A DNA stretch of 28,776 nucleotides from a virus, in IMG/VR virus record IMGVR_UViG_3300030106_002721, positions 1 to 28,776 of that record. One strand, given 5' to 3'. Positions 1,317 to 18,919 of the stretch are shown piece by piece. Below the pieces are notes generated by a model. That model was not told the DNA's origin and ran no database searches. It saw nothing but the letters and a program-made list of their open reading frames with translations. The translations under genes and the position numbers were made by a program. Each line of letters starts with the position of its first letter. The first letter of the stretch is position 1.

Positions 1317-1390
1317 TGGACTCGTGGGCGAGATTCGAACTCGCATGATCGTAGTTGCAGTACGATGCATAACCTTTCTGCCACCACGAG
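1317..1390 (-). tRNA. tRNA-Cys (anticodon GCA), CCA encoded
   Basis: Cloverleaf read on the minus strand: acceptor CTCGTGG/CCACGAG (7 of 7 pairs), 3-bp D stem with a GG-containing loop, anticodon stem TCGTA/TACGA with loop CTGCAAC (anticodon GCA), 4-nt variable loop, T stem GCGAG/CTCGC with loop TTCGAAT. The discriminator is U, the known identity base for cysteinyl-tRNA synthetase, and CCA is encoded at 1317-1319. All stems pair and the identity base is kept, so it is likely functional. It would decode UGC and UGU. Flanked by copies of the island repeat. Confidence 0.95.
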
Positions 1391-6844: not shown

Positions 6845-6945
6845 TTACGCCTCCTATTTTTATATCTACTAGATCTACGTCTTCTTTTTTTAGATCCCAT
6901 CTTCCGTCTACCTTTATGGAACCCTGCTCTGCCTGTATGAGCCAT
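6841..6945 (-). CDS. Small arginine-rich protein (34 aa)
   Basis: 34 residues; the second half is nearly all Arg, Lys and Ser (GSKKRRRRSSRYKNRRRK). Its ATG overlaps the oxygenase stop (TAATG) and its TGA overlaps the next GTG (GTGA). It also carries the GGAGG ribosome site of the next gene. Likely nucleic-acid binding from composition; this is inference only. Confidence 0.6.
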   Translation of the reverse strand: MAHTGRAGFHKGRRKMGSKKRRRRSSRYKNRRRK

Positions 6946-7604
6946 TACTTATCGATACCTTTGCCGACATCTGCACCGGGAACCTTGGATCTTAAATGTA
7001 TATTAAATGCCATAGATCTACGCTCACCTTCACTACGGAACGGATAGACCTGGTGCGATAACCAACTAGGAAATATATATAGATCACCTATCTGTGGTTT
7101 AGCCATGTAAGAATGTTTGCTAAATGTATTTGGCACACTACCTAAAAACTCTAAACAACCAACACTAGGATAATGATCTTCTCTTCTAAACTCTTCTTCA
7201 TAGCCTGATGGTATCTTTAAAAAGAATACACCTGATAGCTGCGAGTCGTGTATATGTACAGGATTAAAGTCACCTGCGTACTGACTTACAACCCATGAAG
7301 TATAAGTCATGTTAGTATTTTCTGGATTAAATTGCTTACCAACAGTTTTTAGTATATACTCCGTCACTAATTTATTTATCACTAACTCTAGTGATTTAAT
7401 TTCGCCCAAGGATAACGCTACTTCTTTTTTCACATTACCAGCCAGGTTAGCACTATAATCTAATTGTTCTGATCTTTTATCATCGTTTAATATATCGTCA
7501 GCCTTTTTATTTACTTCGTCAACTATATTCTGTGGAACAGAACTCTTCATGATCCGTGGTCCGAAAGGCGTGAACATATCATAACTAATTTGTTTCTCTT
7601 GCAT
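6945..7604 (-). CDS. 2-oxoglutarate/Fe(II)-dependent oxygenase family protein
   Basis: A 219-residue protein of the phage 2OG-Fe(II) oxygenase group (2OG-FeII_Oxy_5 type). NPVHIHDSQLSGVFFL (114-129) supplies the first iron ligands (H117, and H119 or D120), GDLYIFPSWLSHQVYPF (173-189) the distal ligand H184, and ERRSMAFNI (194-202) the 2OG-binding Arg. The fold would be a jelly roll. Reaction: oxidation of a substrate with O2 and 2-oxoglutarate, giving succinate and CO2; substrate unknown, perhaps protein or nucleic acid. AAGGAG precedes the ATG. The leader (7605-7786) is structured. Confidence 0.85.
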   Translation of the reverse strand: MQEKQISYDMFTPFGPRIMKSSVPQNIVDEVNKKADDILNDDKRSEQLDYSANLAGNVKKEVALSLGEIKSLELVINKLVTEYILKTVGKQFNPENTNMTYTSWVVSQYAGDFNPVHIHDSQLSGVFFLKIPSGYEEEFRREDHYPSVGCLEFLGSVPNTFSKHSYMAKPQIGDLYIFPSWLSHQVYPFRSEGERRSMAFNIHLRSKVPGADVGKGIDK

Positions 7605-15983: not shown

Positions 15984-16011
15984 ATTATACACTTGATTTA
16001 TTTTTTTGCAA
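15984..16011 (-). promoter_or_regulatory. Promoter of the leftward replication operon
   Basis: Minus strand TTGCAA (16006-16011), 16-bp spacer, TATAAT (15984-15989), followed by AATGGGAG. It overlaps a promoter pointing the other way (15993-16020), so one protein could regulate both. Confidence 0.72.
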
Positions 16012-16020
16012 GTATATAAT
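15993..16020 (+). promoter_or_regulatory. Promoter of the rightward helicase unit
   Basis: Plus strand TTGATT (15993-15998), 16-bp spacer, TATAAT (16015-16020), followed by TATGGGATAC and then AAGGAG of the helicase gene. It shares its core with the leftward promoter, so the two would compete for polymerase. Confidence 0.7.
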
Positions 16021-16044
16021 TATGGGATACAAGGAGAATTTAGA

Positions 16045-17496
16045 ATGTATAGTTATAGTTATAAGTTTAAAACCGAACCTTTTCAACATCAAAAAGCTGT
16101 ATTAGATAAATGCTGGGATAAAAAAGTTTTTGCTTTCTTTATGGAAATGGGCACGGGTAAGTCAAAAGTATTGATAGATAACCTGGCCATATTACACAAA
16201 AAAAGAAAAATAAATGGTGCCTTAATTGTTGCACCAAAAGGCGTGTATAGAAACTGGATGATATCTGAGTTACCTAAACATCTACCTGACAGCGTAGATC
16301 ACTCTGTCATATGTTGGACACCTACACCAAATAAAAAACAAAAAGCCTTATTAGATTCGTTGTCCGTGTTCTCTGAAAAATTAAAAATATTTTTGATAAA
16401 TGTTGAAGCGTTAAGCACAACTAAAGGATTCACTGCAGCTTTAGAGTTTTTAAAAAATCATGCAGTGCTCATGGCAGTTGACGAGTCTACTACAATAAAA
16501 TCACCTACAGCAACAAGAACTAAGAGTGCAATAAAACTAGGAGCATATGCCAAGTACAGAAGAATACTTACAGGATCACCAGTTACTAAATCACCTTTAG
16601 ATTTATATACGCAGTGTGCATTTTTATCTGAAGACTTGTTAGGTTACACATCTTACTGGGCTTTTAAAAGTCGTTACGCACTAATGGCACAAAGAAATGC
16701 TGCAGGTGGTGCACATACTTATCAGCATGTTATCAAGTATATAAGACTTGATGAGTTAAATGAAAAACTAGAAAAGTTTTCGTCACGAGTCTTAAAAGAA
16801 GATTGTCTTGATTTACCAGAAAAATTATACACAAAAAGATTTGTTGAGTTGACAAAAGAACAACAAAAAGCATATCAAGAAATGAAACAGTTTGCTATAT
16901 CAGAATTAGAAGGCAATACTATGACTGCTTTTTCTGGTCTTACACAATTGATGAGACTACATCAAATAACTTGTGGTCACATGACTACAGACGAAGGTGA
17001 GTTAATAACTTTAAAAAACAATAGAATAAAAGAGTTACTTGACTTTTTAGATGAAACAGATGGTAAAGTAATCATCTGGGCAAATTATAGACATGACATA
17101 AAAACAATAACTAAAGAACTGGAGAACAAATATGGAACACAAACTGCGTGTAGCTTTTACGGTGATACGGCTGTGGACGATAGGGATCAAATTGTATCTA
17201 GGTTTCAAGATCAAGAGGATGATCTTAAATACCTGGTTGCTAATCCAAAGACTGGAGGGTATGGACTTACTCTTACTGCTAGTCACACTGTCGTGTATTA
17301 CAGCAACAGTTACGATTTAGAAATACGTTTGCAATCAGAGGACAGAACACACAGGATTGGTCAAAACAATAAAGTAACTTATGTAGACTTTATTGCTGAA
17401 AAAACTGTTGATGAAAACATTGTCAAATGTTTAAGATCTAAGATTGACATTGCGACAGAGGTGCTTGGTGAAGACTTGAAAAGCTGGCTAGTATAA
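16045..17496 (+). CDS. SNF2-like superfamily 2 helicase
   Basis: 483-residue ATP-dependent DNA translocase or helicase. Motif I MEMGTGKS (33-40), motif Ia IVAPKGVYRNW, motif II VDEST (145-149; the usual DEAH is DEST), motif III LTGSPVTKSP, motif V GYGLTLTAS and motif VI QSEDRTHRIGQ (about 430-440), the SNF2 signature. Start: ATG 16045 with AAGGAG 8-9 nt upstream; an earlier in-frame TTG lies inside the promoter. First gene of the rightward unit. In phages such proteins accompany AEP primases and family A polymerases and probably open the origin or fork. Confidence 0.93.
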   Translation: MYSYSYKFKTEPFQHQKAVLDKCWDKKVFAFFMEMGTGKSKVLIDNLAILHKKRKINGALIVAPKGVYRNWMISELPKHLPDSVDHSVICWTPTPNKKQKALLDSLSVFSEKLKIFLINVEALSTTKGFTAALEFLKNHAVLMAVDESTTIKSPTATRTKSAIKLGAYAKYRRILTGSPVTKSPLDLYTQCAFLSEDLLGYTSYWAFKSRYALMAQRNAAGGAHTYQHVIKYIRLDELNEKLEKFSSRVLKEDCLDLPEKLYTKRFVELTKEQQKAYQEMKQFAISELEGNTMTAFSGLTQLMRLHQITCGHMTTDEGELITLKNNRIKELLDFLDETDGKVIIWANYRHDIKTITKELENKYGTQTACSFYGDTAVDDRDQIVSRFQDQEDDLKYLVANPKTGGYGLTLTASHTVVYYSNSYDLEIRLQSEDRTHRIGQNNKVTYVDFIAEKTVDENIVKCLRSKIDIATEVLGEDLKSWLV

Positions 17497-17510: not shown

Positions 17511-18149
17511 ATGGCTTATCTTAATCATAACTTACCTCCTTTCAGTGCTTATATAAGGGACGAGTATTTATATGATCATGAGAAAGGACACGGTGAATTT
17601 ACTTTTGCTGATGTGCATACTGTAAATAGTCTTGAGCGAAGAGCACTATTATTTGAGTGTTTATTACCAAACGGTGTAAATTGGACTAGAAGACCAATAC
17701 ATGCTTTTTGTTGGAAAAAAGATGCACCTAAACATCCTTTAAACATACATCAATATTGGGACTGTTTTTCACCATATGTGGACGTACAAAGAAGAAATAG
17801 GTTAGCTAATTGTAGAGCTGAATTAGTAGACTATAAAGGTACAAAAAGAAAAGGCACATACATGTTTACCATAGACTGGGCATGGGAAAACAAAGCGGGT
17901 ATGTTAGATACTAACTTTAGCGAAGATCCTGAGCATAAGTGTGCACATATGTTTCGCATGGATGATGGTAACTTCTTTGCTTACCCAAATAATAGAACTA
18001 TTTGGTATGATGATGCTTTTATGGAAGAAAGATTAACAAAAAACCCTGGATATAAGATTGATCAAAACTTTTACACAGTAGAAAATACAAGAGAAGAGGA
18101 CACAGTTACTGATGATTCTTATATGACTCAGTTTGAACGTCCCGAGTGA
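17511..18149 (+). CDS. Conserved hypothetical marine-phage protein (212 aa)
   Basis: 212 residues, aromatic-rich. Conserved-looking blocks: LPPFSAYIRDEYLYDHEKGHGEF (start, in two halves), GRALxF-like region RRALLFECLLPNG, RRPIHAFCWKKDA, YWDCFSPYVDV, YMFTIDWAWE and CAHMFRMDDGNFFAYPNNRTIW. The same order recurs in proteins of uncultured marine phages (recalled), always without a known domain. No signal or membrane segment. The start lies 14 nt after the helicase stop without a clear Shine-Dalgarno, so it may be coupled to the helicase. Function unknown; perhaps replication-associated by context. Confidence 0.75.
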   Translation: MAYLNHNLPPFSAYIRDEYLYDHEKGHGEFTFADVHTVNSLERRALLFECLLPNGVNWTRRPIHAFCWKKDAPKHPLNIHQYWDCFSPYVDVQRRNRLANCRAELVDYKGTKRKGTYMFTIDWAWENKAGMLDTNFSEDPEHKCAHMFRMDDGNFFAYPNNRTIWYDDAFMEERLTKNPGYKIDQNFYTVENTREEDTVTDDSYMTQFERPE

Positions 18150-18919
18150 AAATATTTTTTGATCATATTACAGGTAAATTAACACATTATGATTTACTTT
18201 ACAGTTTACCCTTAGCAGAGTTTGACAAGAGTGAATATGATTATGCATTTAACAATGGCTGGTTACCTCTTTCTTGGTATTATACAAAGATAAATCACAT
18301 CACATGGATCAATGCCAGATCCAGTAGACTGCAGCTATCAAAGTTTACATTCTCTAAAAAACAAAAATATACATTAAATAAAAAAAATATAAGTGTTCAT
18401 ACTTACGATAAGTTACCTACGTATTTAGTAGATGATATTGCAGAAATATATAAAAAATATATTCGTCAAAAAAATTATTATGAAATAAATAATGAGAAAG
18501 AAAGTGAAGAATTCATGCGTGATGATCCGATTGATTGGAAGTATTTTGTTTACTTTTATAAAGATAAACCTATTGCTTTTACCGAAGCCATGATGGTTGA
18601 CAATCATTTTATGACAGGACAATTTGCATGGGATTATGAAAATCCTAAATTAGGTATGGGCACTTACGCCACATTGTACGAGATAAAATATTGTATGAAC
18701 TGGAATTATCAGTTTTACTATTTTTCTTACAGTTATGAAAATAGTAGTGCTTACAAATCAAAGTATGATGGCTTTGAGTTTTGGACAGGTAGAAACTGGT
18801 GTAAAGACAAAAATGTGTATATTCAATTATGTAAAAATGATAGTGATATAAAAAATTTAGCAGATCTTAATGATAATCAACAAAAGTATTTTAATTTAGT
18901 TTTTGGCGCTCATACCTGA
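18146..18919 (+). CDS. Arginyl-tRNA-protein transferase (ATE)-like protein
   Basis: 257 residues with the two-part outline of ATE/Bpt aminoacyl-tRNA-protein transferases, which add an amino acid from a charged tRNA to a protein N-terminus. N-terminal part: YDYAFNNGW (31-39) and ARSSRLQLSKFTFSKKQK (57-74) match the ATE pattern GWRRSG then RCRPLQFxPSKSxKK. C-terminal part is GNAT-like: YKKYIRQK (102-109), LGMGTYATLYEIKYC (169-183), YYFSYSYENSSAYKSKY (191-207) and a final W. The cysteines that bind Fe-S or zinc in true ATEs are missing, so the chemistry may differ. Start GTG overlaps the preceding TGA. Its end overlaps the convergent gene by 24 nt. Confidence 0.68.
   Translation: MKIFFDHITGKLTHYDLLYSLPLAEFDKSEYDYAFNNGWLPLSWYYTKINHITWINARSSRLQLSKFTFSKKQKYTLNKKNISVHTYDKLPTYLVDDIAEIYKKYIRQKNYYEINNEKESEEFMRDDPIDWKYFVYFYKDKPIAFTEAMMVDNHFMTGQFAWDYENPKLGMGTYATLYEIKYCMNWNYQFYYFSYSYENSSAYKSKYDGFEFWTGRNWCKDKNVYIQLCKNDSDIKNLADLNDNQQKYFNLVFGAHT

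Follow-up and report, generated by a model that had tools for sequence, protein, structure and literature searches.

A marine-phage arginyltransferase relative lacking the metal-binding cysteines is almost always paired with a phrog_3704 gene, suggesting an undescribed protein-tagging system

We identified a predicted aminoacyl-tRNA-dependent transferase related to arginyltransferases (ATE) in a viral sequence of 28,776 nucleotides (IMG/VR record IMGVR_UViG_3300030106_002721; the whole stretch is referred to here as the window). In marine phages this ATE relative is almost always paired with a second gene, designated C1, which suggests an undescribed phage protein-tagging system. We observed homology to ATE, similarity of fold over the whole length of the protein, absence of the metal site, purifying selection and a recurrent, tight pairing with C1. 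We put at roughly 60% the probability that this phage member of the ATE/Bpt superfamily is an aminoacyl-tRNA-dependent transferase that has a nonmetal N-terminal domain and works together with C1. To our knowledge, studies of the tagging of proteins with amino acids by ATE/Bpt enzymes have so far dealt with cells only, and no paper on phage arginyltransferases was found in the open-access literature searched. The two genes are arranged as follows.

17511 to 18149, plus strand: C1, the phrog_3704 partner gene, encoding 212 amino acids with an all-beta predicted fold and overlapping the start of the ATE-like gene
18146 to 18919, plus strand: ATE-like gene, encoding a predicted aminoacyl-tRNA-dependent transferase of 257 amino acids with a GTG start and without the metal-site cysteines

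Sequence and predicted fold of the ATE-like protein

The ATE-like open reading frame is intact, stop codon included, and its GTG start overlaps the stop codon of the upstream gene (GTGA). Because dN/dS was 0.07 to 0.09 between the close relatives compared, it is neither a chance frame nor a decaying one. A search with hmmscan placed the Pfam domain ATE_C (PF04377) on the protein with an E value of 2.2e-8 and 35.2 bits, above the curated cutoff of 25 bits. Nearly all relatives tested also exceeded this cutoff, with one (L126) falling just below it.

18440 to 18781, plus strand: GNAT-like ATE_C domain, residues 99 to 212, with the signatures QFxWDY, xLxxG, Y-K and GFE

Five NCBIfam arginyltransferase models also matched the protein at an E value of 1e-4 or better, all far below their equivalog cutoffs; one of them spans residues 27 to 225, and the other four start at about residue 56. 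No Pfam match to the N-terminal family ATE_N (PF04376) was obtained in the window, and a homologue (L127) gave a weak one (E = 0.023, profile positions 22 to 72). Yeast ATE1 was a direct sequence match of the window protein in the PDB (E = 8e-4). A profile built from the phage family found ATE1 alone in the PDB (E = 1e-9 to 1e-3, with yeast ATE1 at 1e-9), and it matched the Bpt of Acinetobacter over 162 columns (E = 9e-10).

The structure of the window protein was predicted with AlphaFold2 from 19 sequences. The resulting model had a pLDDT of 81.3 and a pTM of 0.82, and pLDDT fell below 50 at residues 1 to 20 and 113 to 115 only. When the model was used as the query in Foldseek, ATE1 structures ranked first (E = 4e-9), followed by A-PGS, FemX, L-PGS and LFTR, all of which are aminoacyl-tRNA transferases. 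VIA-align superposed the model on human ATE1 with a Z score of 18.2 (231 residues, 3.5 Å), the alignment running from residue 1 to residue 257. The two-part ATE fold, a small N-terminal domain and a GNAT-like domain, is thus present in the model, with residues 1 to 20 at low confidence. An earlier sequence-only reading of this DNA had called the protein ATE-like, had traced both the N-terminal and GNAT-like halves of arginyltransferases in it and had named GW (residues 38 and 39), RLQLSKFTFSKKQK and LGMGTYATLYEIKYC as motifs; the ATE_C score and the fold match to ATE1 support that identity, both halves align, and all the motifs are present. The same reading had proposed superposition on ATE1 and had held that it would fail if no ATE/GNAT double fold were predicted or if the best hits were to plain acetyltransferases only; Foldseek and VIA-align returned the double fold, with ATE1 first and other aminoacyl-tRNA transferases next. 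By homology and whole-length fold, the window protein belongs to the ATE superfamily; fold alone is no proof of activity.

It could be argued that the protein is an acyl-CoA-dependent acetyltransferase that resembles ATE merely through the common GNAT core. The best non-ATE structures reached a Z score of 14.5 over 148 residues, many GNATs scored 11 to 12, and a divergent relative (L240) also matches Acetyltransf_6 (E = 2.5e-6). Against this, ATE1 was far ahead of every acetyltransferase in both structure searches, and the sequence profile retrieved nothing but ATE1 from the PDB. Furthermore, the acetyl-CoA signature Q/R-x-x-G-x-G/A is absent, and P-K-L-(G/S/N/D/H/Y)-x-G stands in its place. 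Pro167 occupies the Q/R position across the diverse set, and in roughly one third of members the first glycine of the loop gives way to Ser, Asn, Asp, Tyr, His or Gln. We regard an acetyltransferase as improbable.

Loss of the metal site and conservation of core residues

The metal site of yeast ATE1, which takes up zinc or an Fe-S cluster, consists of C20, C23, C94 and C95 (PMC10115844, PMC9884297). In order to compare the phage proteins with cellular ones, 120 Pseudomonadota genomes were sampled, 77 of which carry an ATE_N gene (the Bpt branch). The cysteine sample, which was unbiased as to cysteine, comprised 30 extracted proteins and one Acinetobacter Bpt. The latter came from a record (L113, CAKLQH020000030.1) that matched the L020 type under the name "Acinetobacter phage MD-2021a"; we rejected it as a phage since it is a piece of Acinetobacter chromosome with ftsK, trxB, aat, bpt and tufA, and it was used solely as a Bpt yardstick. 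All 31 cellular proteins keep four cysteines in the N-terminal half, whereas the 74 distinct phage members have no conserved cysteine in the N-terminal part, as the sequence-only reading had anticipated for the window protein. Indeed, the first 75 residues contain no cysteine at all in 38 of the 74. Two stretches of the window protein lie at or near the positions of the cellular metal site.

18146 to 18166, plus strand: N-terminal strand and D6-H7 pair (M/V-K-I/L-F/Y-F-D-H), invariant in one alignment of the family
18296 to 18328, plus strand: region aligned with the metal site, codons 51 to 61 (H51 to R61), from joint alignments with cellular Bpt

In the second stretch, the cysteines of the CxxCxxC...R segment of Bpt are replaced by H51, W54 and A57, and W54, R58 and R61 are invariant across the diverse phage set. 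D6-H7 sits near the place of the first metal-site cysteine of the cellular enzymes. A D/E-H/N pair is found in 85 of 107 distinct phage members, the rest being short, truncated or unmatched by the pattern. MKIFFDHI had itself served as a search pattern, and loci fetched by C-terminal patterns alone were used as an independent check; the MKIFFDHI start is kept in these as well.

Other residues also set the phage proteins apart. In the alignment, the GF-RRS, YRP, RH..G.M and KM motifs of cellular Bpt are lost from the phage sequences; GF-RRS, YRP and KM vary little or not at all among 17 cellular sequences. It therefore cannot be assumed that the phage protein has the same acceptor and amino-acid specificity as Bpt and ATE1. 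In common with cellular Bpt, the window protein has G38, R61, Y105, G172, Y203, K204, E211 and W218. Judged by these alignments, it falls within the ATE superfamily and is no canonical Bpt or ATE1.

The absence of Bpt-invariant residues besides the cysteines makes a catalytically dead tRNA-binding protein possible: a relic of the fold that binds tRNA or peptide and serves as a regulator, perhaps with C1 or free tRNA as its ligand. Such a protein might well have lost the metal site together with several otherwise invariant residues, and a form of 161 amino acids (L176, L241 to L258) consists of ATE_C only, with the N-terminal domain wholly missing. The core residues shared with Bpt (Y105, G172, K204, E211 and W218) are nevertheless invariant, and the gene is under strong purifying selection, so that a noncatalytic role seems doubtful to us.

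Comparison with known aminoacyl-tRNA transferases

Bacterial Bpt is a leucyltransferase that acts on N-terminal Asp or Glu; it is represented by NCBIfam arginyltransferase PRK01305 and by Pfam ATE_N plus ATE_C. The window protein is similar to it in length, has the ATE_C domain and common core residues, and can be aligned with it in the N-terminal half. Unlike Bpt, it has no C...CxxCxxC metal site, GFRRS, RH..G.M or KM, is encoded in phage contigs beside phrog_3704, and is only about 15% identical to Acinetobacter Bpt. Eukaryotic ATE1 (human 8tzv, yeast 7tif and 8e3s) matches the fold over the whole length with Z scores of 13 to 18; the phage protein is half its size, without the large inserts and without C20, C23, C94 and C95 (PMC10115844, PMC9884297). 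LFTR (Aat), FemX and A-/L-PGS (MprF) share the GNAT-type aminoacyl-tRNA transferase fold class, but their structural scores were lower and no sequence match to them was found.

Distribution of the ATE-like gene in phages

A search of IMG/VR with the single protein returned 31 relatives, and a profile search returned at least 546 among the matches listed. Contigs with the ATE-like gene carry phage terminase, portal, capsid and replication genes nearby. When cellular genome contigs were scanned with the C-terminal profile, none of the matches was close enough to be confirmed as a relative, and no INPHARED phage matched the window protein or the L019 and L024 types. PolA of the window phage is 54 to 56% identical to that of pelagiphage HTVC023P and of an environmental relative. 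The window phage also encodes a terminase, a primase and the following.

1317 to 1390, minus strand: tRNA-Cys (gca), the single tRNA gene of the window
6945 to 7604, minus strand: 2OG-Fe(II) oxygenase (phrog_81, E = 1.5e-33)
16006 to 17496, plus strand: SNF2-type helicase upstream of C1 (Pfam SNF2-rel_dom, E = 1.6e-21; phrog_62, E = 2.8e-118)

The helicase is a conserved neighbor in the phage type of the window only. The tRNA-Cys was considered as a dedicated amino-acid donor and rejected: it is the sole tRNA in the window and in two other contigs (G009 and G014) and is absent from six other ATE-bearing contigs.

The ATE-like gene is paired with C1

C1 matched the phrog_3704 profile with an E value of 1.9e-55 over positions 1 to 207 of 223. 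In the first fetches, a sample that followed similarity to the queries, favored their close relatives and consisted mostly of contig fragments, the ATE-like gene adjoined C1 in 110 of 124 phage loci (some of these loci overlap each other on the same contig, and 71 of the protein pairs are distinct). Four loci were cut off at contig ends, and the remaining 10 form one subfamily of 224 amino acids within L021 to L031. Each of the 92 pairs measured was spaced by exactly -4, -1 or +3 bases. Divergent members fetched later (L229, L232, L234 to L237, L239 and L240) also have no adjacent C1, the absence here and in L021 to L031 being judged on the DNA available per locus. C1 is thus not universally needed. 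In Kyanoviridae-like contigs (L176, L241 to L258), C1 directly follows the 161-residue ATE_C-only form.

C1 also occurs alone. phrog_3704 is present in 112 isolate records and is common in cyanophages and pelagiphages; the C1 of the window belongs among these proteins, and the best of the listed isolate matches are 39 to 64% identical to it. Twenty C1-bearing records were fetched for C1, including HTVC023P, HTVC027P, Syn19 and three other Synechococcus phage records. Nineteen of them, unlike the window, have no adjacent ATE-like gene and no ATE_C anywhere, and the remaining one carries ATE_C beside C1. In a tree of C1, which includes clades with the reverse gene order, the ATE-adjacent state changed seven times, at least five of these changes being forced by well-supported branches; the branches leading to L019 and L020, two of the deepest members, are very long, which leaves their position uncertain. 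On several occasions the pairing of C1 with the ATE-like gene has been gained or lost, and both gene orders are involved.

C1 evolves slowly, with a dN/dS of 0.014 to 0.026, and both it and the ATE-like gene are under strong purifying selection. In GenBank and RefSeq phage records (H1 to H20), phrog_3704 proteins are labeled PurM (phosphoribosylaminoimidazole synthetase) or ferredoxin. We rejected both names as misannotation, as no Pfam family supports either. The predicted model of C1 (pLDDT 73) is mostly beta; its best matches were Tudor domains, headed in Foldseek by that of SETDB1 at a weak E value of 0.016, and VIA Z scores were at most 4.3. A function of C1 as a Tudor/SH3-like reader is, on this model, only a lead.

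SET-domain genes and other neighbors of C1

The SET domain defines a family of protein lysine methyltransferases. A SET-domain gene was found beside C1 in L109, L112, L170, L181, L183 and L191. In two phage lineages other than that of the window, SET joins the pair: the order in L248 is SET, ATE-like, C1, and in L238 it is SET, ATE-like, one small gene, C1. Our main argument for C1 as the acceptor, the adaptor or the reader of a protein mark is that protein-modifying enzymes of two unrelated types cluster around it.

Small, very basic proteins with the C terminus K-x-Y-R-G/N-Q-G-K/R are encoded in 57 loci, often near phrog_3704 (for example, L176:1023-1157, L191:4987-5130 and one in L117). They are possible Lys-rich targets. 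As a common acceptor, the basic proteins ending in YRGQGK were rejected: they recur near C1 in Kyanoviridae-type loci and are absent from the window.

A different context was noted at L229:2069-3001 and L240:1912-2976, where the ATE-like genes are divergent and C1 is missing. Both ATE-like genes directly follow an amidinotransferase-like gene, and both face a convergent gene (with weak DUF6875 similarity in L240). Such surroundings might mean that the enzyme is a tailoring enzyme that adds an amino acid to a metabolite, a peptide or a virion glycan, with no protein acceptor. The amidinotransferase-like assignment, made by eye and with no Pfam match in L240, is consistent with this, as is a radical-SAM gene directly upstream in L231. 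These contexts are rare, however, and C1 and SET are the recurrent neighbors; we give tailoring little credence.

Relationship to N-degron tagging

Bpt and ATE1 tag N termini with destabilizing residues for proteolysis. By analogy, the phage enzyme might add a destabilizing residue to host or phage N termini and so direct the proteins to degradation by ClpS/ClpAP, a possibility that the sequence-only reading had raised for host proteolysis. Membership in the ATE superfamily speaks for this, and the presence of the Bpt branch in 77 of the 120 Pseudomonadota genomes sampled indicates that the pathway is widespread. Additionally, the 347-kb phage-like contig that carries L020 encodes a ClpS homologue (Pfam E = 6e-12).

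L193:1450-1749, minus strand: ClpS homologue, on the same contig as L020

This homologue has N-N-D and H at the positions of N-D-D and H in Escherichia coli ClpS. On the other side, ClpS was found in only 1 of 15 ATE-bearing contigs tested, most of them partial, and Aat in none of the 15; the Bpt-specific residues are missing; and the near-fixed partner is C1 rather than a protease component. The host could supply ClpS where a contig has none. The ClpS on the L020 contig keeps the idea alive for that phage only, and we consider N-degron tagging unlikely as the general function. A diversion of host proteolysis by way of ClpS is conceivable, with weak support; the tight pairing with C1 and the recurrent SET neighbor make a phage-encoded partner or target as likely as host proteolysis. 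On the same contig, a cluster of 15 tRNA genes adjoins the C1-ATE pair.

Proposed function

Folds of the kind seen in ATE1, LFTR and FemX accommodate the CCA end of an aminoacylated tRNA and transfer its amino acid onto an amine (PMC10115844). In the reading that we prefer, an aminoacyl-tRNA-dependent transferase working with C1, the GNAT-like half would bind a charged tRNA at its 3' end, and the amino acid would be handed on to an amine, probably at the N terminus or in a side chain of a protein or peptide. The small N-terminal domain, held in the cellular enzymes by the four-cysteine metal site, may here be held by nonmetal contacts and would still order the acceptor cleft. The C1 product would take part as the acceptor, as an adaptor to the acceptor or as a reader of the mark. 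More tentatively, the genes may form a cassette in which a metal-free ATE-type transferase, joined by SET in some lineages, modifies phrog_3704 or a target that it presents; the mark might then be a regulatory or virion mark and not a degradation tag.

A large phage-borne branch that lacks the metal site would reveal what the enzyme can do without, and it would test whether the Zn/Fe-S site has a regulatory or a structural role. The branch also gives a concrete partner in phrog_3704, a common protein of cyanophages and pelagiphages that has been labeled PurM or ferredoxin without support.
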